Below are positions 36,833 through 45,969 of a stretch of 60,720 nucleotides of DNA, piece after piece (the stretch's first letter is position 1; every line of letters begins with the position of its first letter). A model generated the notes under the pieces. The model did not search any database. It was not told the origin of the DNA and saw nothing but the letters and a program-made list of their open reading frames with translations. Made by a program: the position numbers and the translations under genes. Origin of the DNA: Marinilabiliales bacterium (GTDB lineage: Bacteria > Bacteroidota > Bacteroidia > Bacteroidales > PUMT01); NCBI GenBank assembly GCA_007695015.1, contig REEN01000056.1:1-60720 (forward strand), in the 5' to 3' direction.

Positions 36833-37375
36833 ATGGACAGACTGATTCCCGTAAAGACTGCTGATGATATTTTACCTGAGTACCTGGATACGCCGGTGCA
36901 GACCCTTTTTGAGTATCATAATTTCAGGAAGCCTTTCGGCAGCTATACCGATTCAAAAATGCTGATCGGTATGTGCATGGATAAAAGAATCCACCTGAAC
37001 CTTCCCGACAGGTTCGCATTTACCATTCGTACGGGCGGAGCCAACCTGAGATACAGTGCATTCAACGTATCATACGCGATTGCCGTGGGAGGTGTCAGGT
37101 GCATAGTGCTGATAGGCCATAATGACTGCGGAATGGTCAACCTCTATTCTAAAAAGGATCAGATAGTCGGGGGACTGGTCGAGGGTGCAGGAATGGATCC
37201 TGAGCAGTCTGAAGACCATTTCAGGAATTATGCCCCGATGTTTGAGATAGACAGCGAAACTGAGTTCCTGCTGAGCGAAGCTGCAAGGCTTCGTAAGAAA
37301 TATCCGAAAATCCTTGTGGCCCCGCTTTTCTATATTATTGAGGACAACCAGCTTTATTTCCTGGATGAGGGCTGA
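36833..37375 (+). CDS. Beta-class carbonic anhydrase-like protein
   Basis: 180 residues. Interconverts carbon dioxide and bicarbonate if active. The zinc and catalytic set of the beta class is complete: Cys48, Asp50 and Arg52 in GMCMDKRI, and His96 and Cys99 in GHNDCGM. The surrounding FTIRTGGANLRYSAFNVSYA and VGGVRCIVLIGHNDCG are also characteristic. The N-terminal part (residues 1-42) is short and the middle loop differs from well-studied enzymes, so activity should be regarded as likely, not certain. Neighbours do not show its purpose. Confidence 0.85.
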   Translation: MDRLIPVKTADDILPEYLDTPVQTLFEYHNFRKPFGSYTDSKMLIGMCMDKRIHLNLPDRFAFTIRTGGANLRYSAFNVSYAIAVGGVRCIVLIGHNDCGMVNLYSKKDQIVGGLVEGAGMDPEQSEDHFRNYAPMFEIDSETEFLLSEAARLRKKYPKILVAPLFYIIEDNQLYFLDEG

Positions 37376-40932: not shown

Positions 40933-40948
40933 ACAGGAATATTCCTGT
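40933..40948. other. 16-base perfect palindrome at convergent gene ends
   Basis: ACAGGAATATTCCTGT is identical on both strands. It touches the last base of the triple-PII gene's stop and sits between it and OsmC. It could be a short hairpin or a protein site; no T tract follows. Confidence 0.4.
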
Positions 40949-42153
40949 TATAGATCATGTACATAAGCTGCCGGTGAATCCAGTACCTGTATGCGGTCGG
41001 TATTGTCTTCCTTGATGGTGCTGACCTCCAGCAGCGCATCGACAACATCGTTGGTCAATCCGGCCGGCACGCTGATGGCGCTTCGTATCATGGTGGAGGA
41101 GACCTCAGCATCTGTAACTTCAGGCGTTATACGCGATGTGGTGGCGCCTGTGGCACCCACCTCGAGACATGCCTCCCTCAGCTTTTCAATGCGGTCTTCG
41201 TCTGATATGATCGATATCTCGCAATTATCCTGGGGCAGAAGTGTACTGCCCTGAGCCTGTCCGGCACCCTCGGCATCCAGTCTTTTGCGCCAGCTCGTGC
41301 CGGCTTTGAGCGAGTCTATGGCTGCAATTATCTGCTCCATGCTTGCAGCATACCTCTGTTTGCCTGTTTTGAGCCGTGTATCCAGCAGACCCATACTGAC
41401 CGGGGTCTGGTAAATGTATCCCCGTCCCGGCCTGTCAAGCCTCGCCTGTTCGATCAGCAGCTTTATGATACTGTCGGAATCCTGTTCGGGCATTACCAGG
41501 TGGACAATCTCCTTCTCGGGCGATATGGTTATCCGTATAAGTCCAAGTTGATCCCTTATATCATTTCCGGTGGCGAAGGTAACAAGAGGTACGCATATTC
41601 CCAGGTCAAGAGCTATCCTGGCCAGGTTTTCGCCGCTACCGGGCACCGACAGAACACAGATCACATAGGACAGCTTTTTGACGATGTTCTGCGCGGAGTG
41701 GTCGTTTGCACCGTTATCAAGTGCGGCAGGGTTTATGTCGAAGGGCTCCTTGCTGAACTCCATGAGGTCCTGCGAGAAGACAGTCCCCCTTCCGGGGATG
41801 TGAAGGTCGGTTATCCGGACTATCTTTTCGACAACCTGCCGCGAAGTTTCCCTTGGCACTGTAAACCGGAAAATGTCGACCGGGGAGTTCTGGAGGCTGA
41901 CAACGTTACCCGGGAGTCCGAATGGCTGCGGTTTGAGGAATTCCCTGACCGTCCTGCCGGGCTCTATATATGCTATCACTCCCAGCTCTCTAAGGAAGCT
42001 TGATATTTTGTCCTTGAGGAGGTGGTTAATGATACATGTTATCCTGCTTACCCTGTGAGGTGTGTAGATGCCTTTAGCCATTTGTGTCCTCCATACCTCC
42101 CTGGAGGGGGATGACACTTTTGCTTTCTTTTCTTTTGTTTCCTGCATCATCAT
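40948..42153 (-). CDS. Protein of three tandem PII-like units
   Basis: 401 residues, cytoplasmic. Unit 1 (about 35-145) has RITCIINHLLKDKISSFLRE and ends PGRGTVFSQ; unit 2 (about 165-255) has LSYVICVLSVPGSGENLARI and ends RPGRGYIYQ; unit 3 (about 305-395) has CEISIISDEDRIEKLREACL and a shortened end. The PII pattern is a beta-alpha-beta start, a long T-loop and a glycine-rich GxG closing loop; here it repeats three times, with two closing loops kept. PII proteins sense ATP, ADP, AMP or 2-oxoglutarate, and usually trimerise; three in one chain would be a built-in trimer. The gene follows the DUF1538 gene by 40 bases and surely shares its mRNA. Function is inferred: a regulator of that membrane protein. 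Confidence 0.82.
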   Translation of the reverse strand: MMMQETKEKKAKVSSPSREVWRTQMAKGIYTPHRVSRITCIINHLLKDKISSFLRELGVIAYIEPGRTVREFLKPQPFGLPGNVVSLQNSPVDIFRFTVPRETSRQVVEKIVRITDLHIPGRGTVFSQDLMEFSKEPFDINPAALDNGANDHSAQNIVKKLSYVICVLSVPGSGENLARIALDLGICVPLVTFATGNDIRDQLGLIRITISPEKEIVHLVMPEQDSDSIIKLLIEQARLDRPGRGYIYQTPVSMGLLDTRLKTGKQRYAASMEQIIAAIDSLKAGTSWRKRLDAEGAGQAQGSTLLPQDNCEISIISDEDRIEKLREACLEVGATGATTSRITPEVTDAEVSSTMIRSAISVPAGLTNDVVDALLEVSTIKEDNTDRIQVLDSPAAYVHDL

Positions 42154-42193
42154 ATATTTTTTTCTGTCTGTTATTTACGTGATAATATGCCTG

Positions 42194-44293
42194 CTATACC
42201 TTTTCAGCGATCAGGTTTTCGCTTATGTCCACTTCGTCGTCGTCATCATCTTCATCGTGCTGGTCGAGGGACTTTTGCTGTTTGGTCTTCATTATCAGTC
42301 CGTATGTGAGCACTGTTATGATGGGAAACACCGAGGCCATGGCCAGGATGCCAAATCCGTCGACCACGTTCAGTTCGGCTCCCACGCTGAGACCCATTGC
42401 AAGTACCAGGGGTACGGTAACGGGTCCGGTTGTTACGCCACCACTGTCCCATGCTATTGCCGTGAAATCCTCTTCGCTCAGATAGGTGAGGGGCAGGAGC
42501 AACAGGTAGGGCGGCACCAGGAGGTACAGCAGCGGGATGTCGAACAATATCCGTGCAAGTCCCAGTAAAATACCTGTCCCCACCCCGATCGACACCACTC
42601 TCACTATTTTGGACTGCTTGATGGTGCCGACCGTAAGGTTTTCGACGGTCATGCCCAGCGCGTTGAGGGCCGGCTCGGCCAAGGTTGCCCCGAAACCAAG
42701 TCCGAATGCAAACAGCAATACAAGTATGATCCCGAAGACAGTAAGCCGGCTGTCGAACAGGGGGGTACGGGTTATAATGTGTTCATAGGTGCCTGATGAC
42801 AGATCGAACCGGTTTTCGTGGAACTCTACCGGGGTGATCTGCCCGTTGTCGAGCATATCGAAAAAAGACCTTTTGGTGCCGTCGGTAGTAATGACCGAAT
42901 AGACTATACCTGGGTCGAAATCGTCGATCATGACCCGGTCTACAAACTTCTCCTCGGTTGCAAAGGCCCTCGGGAGCTGTCCCCCGACTTCGCCGCCCAG
43001 CGTTCCCAGTCCCAGTCGTATTCCCGATGTGAGCAGGGTCATTCCGATAAGCGTGAAAACAAGTCCGAGTGCCACCTCATCCTTGTACCTGATCCTTTCG
43101 CGGAGCAAAACGAGCACCAGGATAAGCATTATTGAAAGCGGTATAACAGCACGTGCCCCGCCCATCGTCTCCTCCTTAAGCACAGGTCCGAGAGATTCCT
43201 GGGAGCCGCGCTGACCCGACAGGTCGGCACCGGCAATAAAGGTGCGTTCAAACTCCGAGGCACGGTCAATGATCCAGTCCGCCAAAGAGACTTCCCCGAT
43301 AAGGGAAAAACGGAAATCGGGATCTTCTGTAAAAGCTGTCATTGCGTCAAGGTACTCCTTTTCTGAAGGGTAAAATGCCCGGCGACCCGTTTCGGTACCG
43401 TGTGTAAATGCATGCGAGGACAGCTCGGCTTCCGAATCAAAAAGGTAGAGCGCCTGCTCCCTCTGGGCGGGCGAGAAAAACCTCTCTTCGGAGGTTATCT
43501 CCGGGGCTTTGAAGCTCAGTACGCTGCCAAGAGTGAGGACCGCAAGTATCGGGAAGAGTGAGGCCAGCAGGATGATGCCGAACTCGCCGCTGGACCCTTT
43601 ACCTTTTGATGAGGCCCGGGAGACACCTATTCCCAGTGCAAGAACAAGCGGTACGGTAACCGCGCCTGTTGTGACTGCTCCTGAGTCCCATGCAAGACCG
43701 ATGATGGACCTGATGTTGTCGTTGAATGAGACAATTATAGAAAAGGTGAGTACCAATGGCATTATTATATATATAAATGGCTTGATCGAAAGGTTGTAGT
43801 AAAACCTGAACATACCCAGGCAAACGGCAATTCCCACACCTGCTCCAATTGACAGTACGAGCTGCTCTGTGTTGCGCTCAAGGAGCATGTACAGCAGCGG
43901 CGATTCCCATGCCCGCACTCCTGCACCTGCGGTTCGCAGTGCGCTGATAGCAGGTTCGGCCAGGGTGGAGCCGAAACCGAGCAGCAGTCCGAACAGGGCT
44001 ATGACATAGATAGTTGTTTTGGTAGGGAGTTTTACCCCCACACGCTCTCCAAGGGGCATCAGCCCCAGCACGAGACCCTCGAGGAAAAACGCCAGGCCGA
44101 ATACCACCATCGCTATACCGCCGGCAATGCCCAGGGCATTGGCTATCGGCACACCCAGTATAAGTGTCTGAAAAACGACGAGGTAAAAAATGATGAAAGC
44201 GACAGCTTTTACCTGCTCGACTATTCTTGTACGCGCATAACCGTATAGCAGTATGACCGCGTCAAGGAGGGGGATCTTTTTTCGTTCAATCAT
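42194..44293 (-). CDS. Duplicated DUF1538 membrane protein with acidic tail
   Basis: 699 residues. Two copies of the DUF1538 membrane domain, each with paired helices: copy 1 GFGSTLAEPAISAL and AWDSGAVTTGAVTVPLVLAL, copy 2 GFGATLAEPALNAL and AWDSGGVTTGPVTVPLVLAM. A soluble insert of about 130 residues sits between (roughly 270-390 and 440-520). The C-terminus ends in a tail of repeated Asp (HDEDDDDDEVDISEN). The protein probably is a transporter or channel; the family has no confirmed substrate. It is first in an operon with the triple-PII gene. The duplicated design resembles transporters with inverted or tandem repeats. Confidence 0.9.
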   Translation of the reverse strand: MIERKKIPLLDAVILLYGYARTRIVEQVKAVAFIIFYLVVFQTLILGVPIANALGIAGGIAMVVFGLAFFLEGLVLGLMPLGERVGVKLPTKTTIYVIALFGLLLGFGSTLAEPAISALRTAGAGVRAWESPLLYMLLERNTEQLVLSIGAGVGIAVCLGMFRFYYNLSIKPFIYIIMPLVLTFSIIVSFNDNIRSIIGLAWDSGAVTTGAVTVPLVLALGIGVSRASSKGKGSSGEFGIILLASLFPILAVLTLGSVLSFKAPEITSEERFFSPAQREQALYLFDSEAELSSHAFTHGTETGRRAFYPSEKEYLDAMTAFTEDPDFRFSLIGEVSLADWIIDRASEFERTFIAGADLSGQRGSQESLGPVLKEETMGGARAVIPLSIMLILVLVLLRERIRYKDEVALGLVFTLIGMTLLTSGIRLGLGTLGGEVGGQLPRAFATEEKFVDRVMIDDFDPGIVYSVITTDGTKRSFFDMLDNGQITPVEFHENRFDLSSGTYEHIITRTPLFDSRLTVFGIILVLLFAFGLGFGATLAEPALNALGMTVENLTVGTIKQSKIVRVVSIGVGTGILLGLARILFDIPLLYLLVPPYLLLLPLTYLSEEDFTAIAWDSGGVTTGPVTVPLVLAMGLSVGAELNVVDGFGILAMASVFPIITVLTYGLIMKTKQQKSLDQHDEDDDDDEVDISENLIAEKV

Positions 44294-44649
44294 AACCCGA
44301 TTTTTATGAGATATTTGCGGAAATAAATATAGTAAATATTGAAATGTAAAGCCTGTTTTACTGGCAATACGGCAGTTAACTTATTCACAATTTATCAATA
44401 GCTTAGCGTTTGGCTGCATGTTAACTTACTGATGATGTGATTTATGCGTAGCACAATTAAGACAGGCAAACAGCATCGGGCGGTAACCACTACCGGCTCA
44501 TTGAGGAGAAAATTTACCAACTCATGGAGTAAAAATATCATCATTACCTTCCTGGTTAGGTAAGATTGCATGAAAAAATGTATTTTAGCGCAATTCCGGG
44601 TAGCCGGAATTATTTGAAGTTACAGCGGAACAATACAATTAATTTCTCT
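44294..44649. other. Divergent intergenic region
   Basis: About 356 bases between the DUF1538 operon and the symporter gene. TATATTTA (minus strand, 44324-44331) and TAAGATTG (plus strand, 44561-44568) are one base off the -7 box in each direction. A 39-codon basic frame at 44444-44563 exists but has no support. No repeat seen. Confidence 0.3.
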
Positions 44650-45969
44650 ATGTGGAAAAAATGGAACAACCTCCCATTGTGGGGTAAGATCGTTGCAGGC
44701 ATGGGGGCCGGACTTGTCTGGGGTATGATGGCTGTTATTTTTGACTGGTCGCAGTTCAATGAGCACTGGATAAAGCCGTTTGGTACGATATTCCTCAACA
44801 TGCTCAGGCTGATTGCGGTTCCGCTCATTTTCGTATCTCTGGTAAAAGGGATGGCAAGCCTGACCGATATAGGCAAGCTTTCGCGAATCGGGCTGAAGAC
44901 TCTTGGCTTCTTTATGGCGTCAACGGTGGTGGCAATTACAGTGGGACTTCTGATAGTAAACGTAATGAAACCCGGACATGCCTTTCCCGATTCCCGGCGG
45001 GCCGAGATGCAGGAGCAGTATGCTGCATCGGTCGGTGCGACCGAGGCGGTTGCCGAACAGGTAAGGACAGGGGGACCCCTGGACTTCCTGGTCGAGATAG
45101 TGCCCGAAAATATTGTGAATGCAGCAAGCGATAACCGGAACATTCTGCAGATCATATTCTTTGCAATACTGTTCGGGCTGGCCGTGGCCCTGATCCCCCA
45201 TGAGAAGGTAAAGGCGGTTAAGGATGTTTTCGACGGACTGAATGATATTGTACTTAAGATAGTTGACCTGGTGATGAAAATTGCCCCCCTGGGGGTTTTT
45301 GCCCTTCTGGGCACCCTTGTAGTCGAGTTCACCGGCGATGACATAGCCGAGTCACTCGATCTGTTCGCCTCGCTGGGTCTCTATATAGTGGCTACCGTAA
45401 CCGGGTACCTTGTTATAATATTCATTGTTTATCCTCTGGTCATAAGGCTTACAACCCCTGTGCGCTACAAGGATTTCTACAAGGCCATCAGTCCCGCCCA
45501 GATGATCGCCTTTTCAACCAGCTCGAGTGCAGCTTCGCTGCCAATATCCATGGAGGTTGTAGAACGGGACCTTGGTGTTTCAAAGACAATATCGAGTTTT
45601 GTATTGCCTATAGGGACAACCATAAACATGGACGGAACCAGCCTTTACCAGGCTGTGGGTGCGGTATTTATTGCCCAGGCATTCGGCTTTGACCTTACCA
45701 TGGCACAACAGCTTACCATAGTTCTTACTGCAACCCTGGCTTCGATAGGCACCCCGGGTGTACCGGGAGGCGGGGTGGTGATGCTGGTCATTATTCTTAC
45801 TTCGGTCGGGCTTCCTGCCGAGGGTCTTGCAATGGTGCTCGCCCTTGACAGGCCTCTTGACATGCTGCGCACGGTGGTAAATGTGACGGGCAACTGTGCC
45901 GCATCAACTATAATTGCCAAAAGCGAGAATGAACTGAGCTACCCGCCGGTGAGGGAGTCTGATGCCTGA
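44650..45969 (+). CDS. Dicarboxylate/amino acid:cation symporter (DAACS)
   Basis: 439 residues from ATG 44650, chosen because MWKKWNNLPLWGKIVAGMGA is the normal start; upstream in-frame codons overlap a promoter-like box. Imports glutamate, aspartate or C4 acids with protons or sodium. Signature loops: SSSAASLPISMEVVERDLGV, TTINMDGTSLYQAVGAVFIA and GTPGVPGGGVVML, followed by the NVTGNCAASTIIA helix with the cation-binding Asn. About eight helices and two hairpins. Near the triple-PII/DUF1538 operon but divergently transcribed. Confidence 0.95.
   Translation: MWKKWNNLPLWGKIVAGMGAGLVWGMMAVIFDWSQFNEHWIKPFGTIFLNMLRLIAVPLIFVSLVKGMASLTDIGKLSRIGLKTLGFFMASTVVAITVGLLIVNVMKPGHAFPDSRRAEMQEQYAASVGATEAVAEQVRTGGPLDFLVEIVPENIVNAASDNRNILQIIFFAILFGLAVALIPHEKVKAVKDVFDGLNDIVLKIVDLVMKIAPLGVFALLGTLVVEFTGDDIAESLDLFASLGLYIVATVTGYLVIIFIVYPLVIRLTTPVRYKDFYKAISPAQMIAFSTSSSAASLPISMEVVERDLGVSKTISSFVLPIGTTINMDGTSLYQAVGAVFIAQAFGFDLTMAQQLTIVLTATLASIGTPGVPGGGVVMLVIILTSVGLPAEGLAMVLALDRPLDMLRTVVNVTGNCAASTIIAKSENELSYPPVRESDA

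Follow-up and report, generated by a model that had tools for sequence, protein, structure and literature searches.

A two-gene locus encoding a DUF1538 protein and a PII-like chain

The DNA analysed here, referred to as the window, comprises positions 1 to 60,720 of contig REEN01000056.1 from a Marinilabiliales bacterium (phylum Bacteroidota, assembly GCA_007695015.1). Two neighbouring genes of this window are the subject of this report, one for a membrane protein with a duplicated DUF1538 domain and one for a chain of three PII-like units. A preliminary description, made from the sequence alone, had placed two minus-strand open reading frames (ORFs) of 401 and 699 amino acids (aa) 40 bases apart, and these positions were confirmed:

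40948-42153, minus strand: triple PII-like chain, 401 aa, putative cytosolic regulator (model and PDB-sequence profile search)
42154-42193, minus strand: intergenic gap of 40 bases (ORF positions)
42194-44293, minus strand: double-DUF1538 UmpAB-type membrane protein, 699 aa, long form (PF07556, NCBIfam and AlphaFold)

The chain consists of three PII-like units

The 401-residue chain was modelled with AlphaFold from an alignment of 68 homologues (alignment A2, 68 of 74 chains, six near-copies or cut chains being left out). The model (predicted local distance difference test, pLDDT, 80.9; predicted template modelling score, pTM, 0.81) contains three beta-alpha-beta-beta-alpha-beta units:

41755-42060, minus strand: PII-like unit 1, residues 32-133 (model, hhalign and PDB profile; match to the PII protein 6yc6, 1e-6)
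41386-41682, minus strand: PII-like unit 2, residues 158-256, the most conserved, with a PGxG loop (Pfam, model, hhalign, conservation and motif count)
40963-41232, minus strand: PII-like unit 3, residues 308-397, without the glycine loop (model, hhalign and PDB profile; match to the PII protein 5ovo, 0.0036)

Sequence homology extends to all three units. Against the single-unit PII-like proteins of sister operons, units 1, 2 and 3 reached hhalign probabilities of 98.2, 98.9 and 95.5, respectively, versus 0.8, 0.1 and 0.1 for the same units with their columns reversed. The units also match one another (97.8 for 1-2, 84.6 for 1-3 and 92.8 for 2-3), and against 11 canonical PII proteins they scored 93.5, 59.9 (C-terminal half only) and 91.2, the column-reversed controls giving 10.1, 0.1 and 0.1. 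When the A2 profile was compared with PDB sequences, 35 of the 36 matches at E <= 1 were named PII, GlnB or GlnK, the remaining one (23eo) being named only 'Signaling protein'; unit 2 matches MJ0059 (0.0016). Another matched entry, 9p1x, contains two different PII chains in 6 and 12 copies and might, as a guess, represent a nitrogenase-NifI complex.

Individual profiles recover the units unevenly. Three separate matches to the single-unit PII-like profile (3e-15, 3e-16 and 5e-9) were found in the homologue L132, which had been located from its DUF1538 gene rather than from its chain, while the window chain gave two (unit 1, 0.01; unit 2, 2e-7). The Pfam P-II profile covers only residues 214-253 of the window chain (22.6 bits against a cut-off of 25, E 1.3e-4) and matches 24 of the 68 family members at E <= 0.01, and NCBIfam PG0541 ('transporter-associated') matches the unit 3 region weakly, under its cut-off (E 0.015). 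In structural searches with the chain model, PII proteins appear in Foldseek from rank 9 on with a probability of 1.00. The top ranks of VIA-align are AcrB (Z 7.9) and aldoxime dehydratase (6.8), above the PII rows; among the rows listed, ranks 9-50 are 42 PII or PII-like structures (Z 6.3-5.9). With the fold unit present three times and sequence homology for each, the chain fits the PII/PII-like superfamily, as the preliminary description had proposed.

Conservation in the chain is concentrated in and just after unit 2, where two features stand out:

41506-41571, minus strand: T-loop-like stretch of unit 2, residues 195-216, highly conserved (alignment and conservation; low confidence in part of the model)
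41281-41385, minus strand: conserved segment after unit 2, residues 257-291, AASxEQIIxxID...WR (conservation and motif count)

Of the 39 positions conserved at >= 90%, unit 2 holds 21 and the 35 residues that follow it 12 (33 of 39 together), with three each in units 1 and 3. The motif after unit 2 is present in 68/68 triple chains versus 0/20 single units; this conservation is partly built in, because one pattern of the locus search described below (AAS[MI]EQII) contains part of the motif. The segment is also kept in L132 and in two genomes of the window's order (G620 and G760), all three reached via DUF1538. In the model of the isolated chain, confidence falls below 50 at residues 205-207 and is 60-66 in blocks of residues 261-290. 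Strong conservation combined with weak order in isolation suggests that the T-loop-like stretch and the segment behind it form a partner-binding surface. A PGxG-type loop occurs in 58 of the 68 chains in unit 1 and in 65 in unit 2, using slightly loosened patterns for both, and in none in unit 3, which bears out the earlier remark that the third unit lacks its glycine-rich loop. None of the cysteines or histidines is kept in all 68 chains.

The chain is paired with DUF1538 across phyla

One scan of genome contigs with two peptide patterns yielded 77 chain loci. In 74 of them the chain is immediately preceded by a DUF1538 ORF on the same strand, and the other three start within 95 bp of a contig edge. 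The upstream ORFs include four contig-edge fragments (L061, L066, L074 and L103) and one that is split in two frames (L046), and one chain is itself split (L047); the DUF1538 profile used to examine the loci was built from loci of this analysis, not taken from Pfam. The gap between the two genes in the 74 loci ranges from -146 to +49 bp and is mostly a short overlap; long overlaps may be overstated, because each ORF was started at the first ATG, GTG or TTG. The UmpAB frame split in one genome (L012/L046; 494 and 207 aa) and the chain split in another (L047; 81 and 290 aa) reflect either decay or assembly error.

Going by their record titles, the loci come from a dozen phyla or more, including Bacteroidota, Spirochaetota, Kiritimatiellota, Lentisphaerota, Verrucomicrobiota, Riflebacteria, Cloacimonadota, Bacillota and Thermodesulfobacteriota. 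Twenty-two of the 77 carry names that we take to denote soda-lake datasets or a named alkaliphile. In the window's order the chain is present in 8 of 198 genomes, and all seven others have an adjoining DUF1538 fusion, once split in two frames.

The pairing was also seen from the transporter side. DUF1538 exceeded its cut-off in 13 of 395 genomes of a phylum sample and in 14 of 393 of an order sample, 26 in total since the window's genome belongs to both; three sub-cut-off matches (G487, G413 and G033) are outside this count. PII units directly adjoin DUF1538 in 26/26. Eleven of these genomes combine the triple chain with the long fusion, eleven have two units (fused or separate) with short UmpA and UmpB, and four have a single 115-aa PII with short UmpA and UmpB; no mixed case of unit number and transporter length occurred among the 26. 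On plasmids, nine records matched. In each of the five annotated loci that were read, RefSeq names the gene following DUF1538 a 'P-II family nitrogen regulator'. By reading, it has two PII units in the three loci from Clostridia and a single one in the two from Alphaproteobacteria; H9 lacks annotation, and H4, H5 and H7 lie outside this count. No third gene is common to the operon in the ten flanking proteins scanned, the flanking genes varying by locus. The preliminary description had named a missing PII fold or an unconserved pairing as grounds for giving up its proposal, and neither was encountered.

The membrane protein has two DUF1538 halves and two inserts

PF07556 matches the 699-aa protein in two stretches (E 2.6e-106; 354 bits, cut-off 22.6), in line with the duplicated DUF1538 first reported, and the NCBIfam profiles UmpA (NF041627) and UmpB (NF041628) match at 1.7e-60 and 1.3e-44. 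The AlphaFold model (pLDDT 89.4, pTM 0.87) shows two homologous halves of about seven transmembrane (TM) helices each, 38% identical over 168 columns (E 2e-19). Two inserts are not found in the aligned short forms (alignment A3):

43196-43516, minus strand: insert A, residues 260-366, between the halves, helical, predicted extracytoplasmic (alignment A3, model helices and charge bias)
42743-42961, minus strand: insert B, residues 445-517, located in half 2 between TM2' and TM3', rich in beta strands and predicted extracytoplasmic (alignment A3, model strands and charge bias)

The charge bias compares lysine plus arginine (K+R) with aspartate plus glutamate (D+E). Summed over loops, the family means of K+R come to 16.5 for the loops predicted to face inward, as against 2.4 for the short outer ones, with loop borders set by hand and one predicted inner loop (L5'-6') being acidic, contrary to the rule. 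By this bias both termini are probably cytosolic, the halves inverted relative to each other and inserts A and B outside. Four acidic residues, E113, D203, E540 and D616, are invariant in 61/61 aligned fusions and in 64/64 with three clostridial sequences added. In the model E113 and E540 lie within helix breaks and D203 and D616 just ahead of such breaks, an arrangement with the look expected of a putative ion site.

Searches for a known transporter fold returned nothing at E <= 0.001 with Foldseek and nothing at Z >= 5 with VIA-align, where NCX_Mj recurs at a Z of 3.0-3.8, too weak to be used. A profile search of PDB sequences found no solved DUF1538 structure, its two matches being at chance level (0.21 and 0.54). 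A weak match to the PDB does not make the fold new; given a confident model without a clear PDB counterpart, solving the structure could reveal a novel arrangement for a transporter.

In a tree of 71 transporter rows, a single branch with a support of 100 parts 57 long from 14 short forms; the rows (61 fusions and 10 others) were chosen by hand, the method was a quick one, and L125, L138 and L188-L193 were left out. This single split indicates that, within the sample, the long form with its triple PII chain makes up a single old lineage, although intermediates may have been missed because the long set was gathered mostly via the chain.

A probable PII-regulated cation/proton antiporter

UmpAB of Halomonas zhaodongensis, a DUF1538 heterodimer, is described as a Na+(Li+,K+)/H+ antiporter, whose co-expressed subunits confer salt and alkali tolerance and antiport activity on E. 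coli KNabc (PMC5484666). The statement that DUF1538 has no confirmed substrate is thus outdated. According to a study on cable bacteria, genomes with UmpAB are linked to marine habitat (PMC10030654). We consider it roughly two-thirds probable that the locus encodes an UmpAB-type cation/proton antiporter together with a cytosolic triple PII-type sensor that docks on the antiporter and regulates it, and we class the system as a PII-regulated transporter, much as the preliminary description had supposed in proposing sensor-regulated transport. The chain is probably a regulator and not a catalytic part, since the Halomonas subunits carry out antiport when co-expressed alone, so that a sensor is not needed for catalysis. 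By analogy with Halomonas, and across a deep branch, the exchange would be of Na+ (Li+, K+) for H+.

In the mechanism that we envisage, both antiporter halves are fused in one chain and the sensor comprises three covalently joined PII-like units, which would probably fold into a pseudo-trimer. Contact with the antiporter would be made at its cytosolic face, through the T-loop of unit 2 and the helical, conserved stretch that follows this unit. The clefts beside the PGxG loops in units 1 and 2 may bind a ligand, an adenine nucleotide or a second messenger being the likeliest, which would alter docking and hence the rate of transport in the manner of GlnK acting on AmtB, with control running from chain to transporter. 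A bolder version is that an asymmetric covalent PII pseudo-trimer, with a T-loop working in unit 2 only and a new docking helix, gates an inverted-halves DUF1538 antiporter of a fold not in the PDB, the series of one, two and three units tracking the change from short to long, capped antiporters; this we advance tentatively, as possible but more doubtful than the module itself.

Several observations weigh against the favoured reading. The long clade and the short forms are separated by a very long branch, and the 699-aa protein scores 204.4 bits against an equivalog cut-off of 490 for UmpA and 152.5 against 500 for UmpB, outside both equivalogs, whose cut-offs were set for separate full-length subunits; given the deep branch and these scores, the substrate may differ. 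The words 'PII' and 'P-II' are absent from the text of the Halomonas paper (PMC5484666). The seven Foldseek rows of the chain at E <= 0.001 are not PII and are ferredoxin-like or unrelated structures, with root-mean-square deviations of 12.8-20.9. Finally, the GDGK motif occurs in 1 of 68 chains and YRGxEY in none, whereas 11/11 canonical PII proteins have both, which weakens the ligand part of the reading and, with the GDGK B-loop and the YRGxEY T-loop motif lacking, places the chain outside canonical GlnB/GlnK. The near absence of these motifs makes canonical ATP/2-oxoglutarate and uridylylation chemistry unlikely. The preliminary description had offered nucleotide or 2-oxoglutarate status as the gating signal; gating by 2-oxoglutarate or by canonical ATP binding is weakened, and 2-oxoglutarate sensing is doubtful; another ligand, perhaps an adenine nucleotide, is our guess.

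The most serious competitor keeps the chain as a PII-type regulator and has this deep transporter subfamily move another ion or small solute, with no Na+(K+)/H+ antiport. The deep branch and low equivalog scores favour it, as do the two additional inserts predicted outside the membrane and the failure of PDB sequence and fold searches to find a close solved relative; both halves nevertheless retain all of their buried acidic motif residues (four in total) and their glycine/threonine motifs, and frequent soda-lake provenance, as we presume it from the names, fits cation/proton exchange. We therefore hold this alternative to be unlikely, though of real weight. The loss of canonical ligand motifs can also be turned against sensing as such. 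If the chain were a structural subunit or assembly partner with its PII units as scaffold, the lost loop of unit 3 and the presence of a non-PII segment among the most conserved positions would be understandable. This is improbable in view of the PGxG loops retained in units 1 and 2, of sister operons in which PII is kept as one gene or two separate genes, as is usual for free regulators, and of the activity of Halomonas UmpAB when co-expressed alone (PMC5484666).

No better, in our estimate, is the chance that the chain senses something other than a nucleotide (a metal ion, Na+/K+ or bicarbonate), like its CutA-type or PII-NG-type relatives. Here too the lost ATP/2-oxoglutarate motifs count in favour, and the PII-NG study suggests a metal-sensing role for a protein paired with CzcABC proton/cation antiporters (PMC7726332), but the 68 chains lack any invariant cysteine or histidine. 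That the chain acts on a different cell target and merely has its operon in common with the transporter seems very improbable. Co-transcription by itself is no proof of contact, and no other confident canonical PII (GlnB or GlnK) was found in the window's genome, which is 98.5% complete; against this, the pairing stays constant over many phyla while the remaining neighbours change, and the triple chain accompanies the long transporter in 11/11 genomes and one or two units the short transporter in 15/15.

The classic role of PII proteins is to sense carbon, nitrogen and energy state, and ammonium and bicarbonate transporters are known to be under their control. Through a near-constant pairing with PII, a Na+(K+)/H+ antiporter family would connect the cation and pH homeostasis of many phyla with their metabolic state, and gating by an asymmetric PII pseudo-trimer, if true, would make this a general PII-controlled route for such homeostasis. 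As the three unequal units share one chain, the role of each could be tested by separate mutation, which is impossible in a homotrimer.

Searches of the open literature, which does not include subscription journals and preprints, found no paper linking DUF1538 to PII; such a description may exist elsewhere. The coupling of the two, the series of one, two and three units and the triple chain appear to be undescribed in the literature searchable here. The claim of an undescribed system thus appears to hold for the combination and not for its parts, the transporter family having a characterised member and RefSeq naming the components separately.

Genomic surroundings

The genes nearest to the pair on both flanks are on the plus strand. 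The divergent gene at 44566-45969 (plus strand) reads by eye like a dicarboxylate/amino-acid:cation symporter and has its upstream region in common with the antiporter operon; the product of 36833-37375 (plus strand) reads, again by eye, like a beta-carbonic anhydrase. Regulatory RNAs were searched for because Na+ or c-di-AMP riboswitches could reveal the signal: at Rfam gathering thresholds nothing was found in the window, and 25 related loci gave one tRNA and nothing else. A phage origin was rejected, as one scan for close relatives found none in viral contigs and PHROGs matched neither the chain nor the membrane protein.

At E <= 0.001, PF00543 has one match in the window's genome (L133, G000:C45:19186-19470), the chain itself not being reported. 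This short PII-like gene adjoins a frame that reads by eye like an RND pump and is perhaps PG0541-like. Elsewhere in the phylum, a PII match lies within a 765-residue open frame, possibly a PII fusion (G227:C1:2376728-2377048).

Comparison with known systems

UmpAB of H. zhaodongensis and the window protein both belong to the DUF1538 family, are built of two homologous halves with about seven TM helices apiece, and share the A/E/P and D...VTTG motif residues in each half. UmpAB is a two-component system, whereas the window protein is one chain with two inserts in a deeply separate clade; and the window antiporter adjoins a PII chain, while the text of the Halomonas paper names no PII partner (PMC5484666).

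The closest parallel in the layout of regulator and transporter is GlnK-AmtB, where a cytosolic PII-fold protein with a conserved T-loop-like stretch is likewise encoded beside its membrane partner, presumed as such in the window. GlnK docks on AmtB by its T-loop. The partner in the window is a DUF1538 protein and does not belong to the Amt ammonium channels, and GlnK is a homotrimer, in contrast to three unequal units in one chain without GDGK or YRGxEY. SbtB-SbtA is similar in that a PII-like protein whose motifs are non-canonical is found next to a transporter, and SbtB structures are among the fold matches of the chain (6mmq, 5o3r and 7obj), but the transporter is of another family (bicarbonate) and SbtB is a single unit. 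PII-NG with the CzcABC/RND pumps (PMC7726332) and PG0541 also set a PII-like protein beside a proton-driven cation transporter; they differ from the window in their RND partner and single unit.

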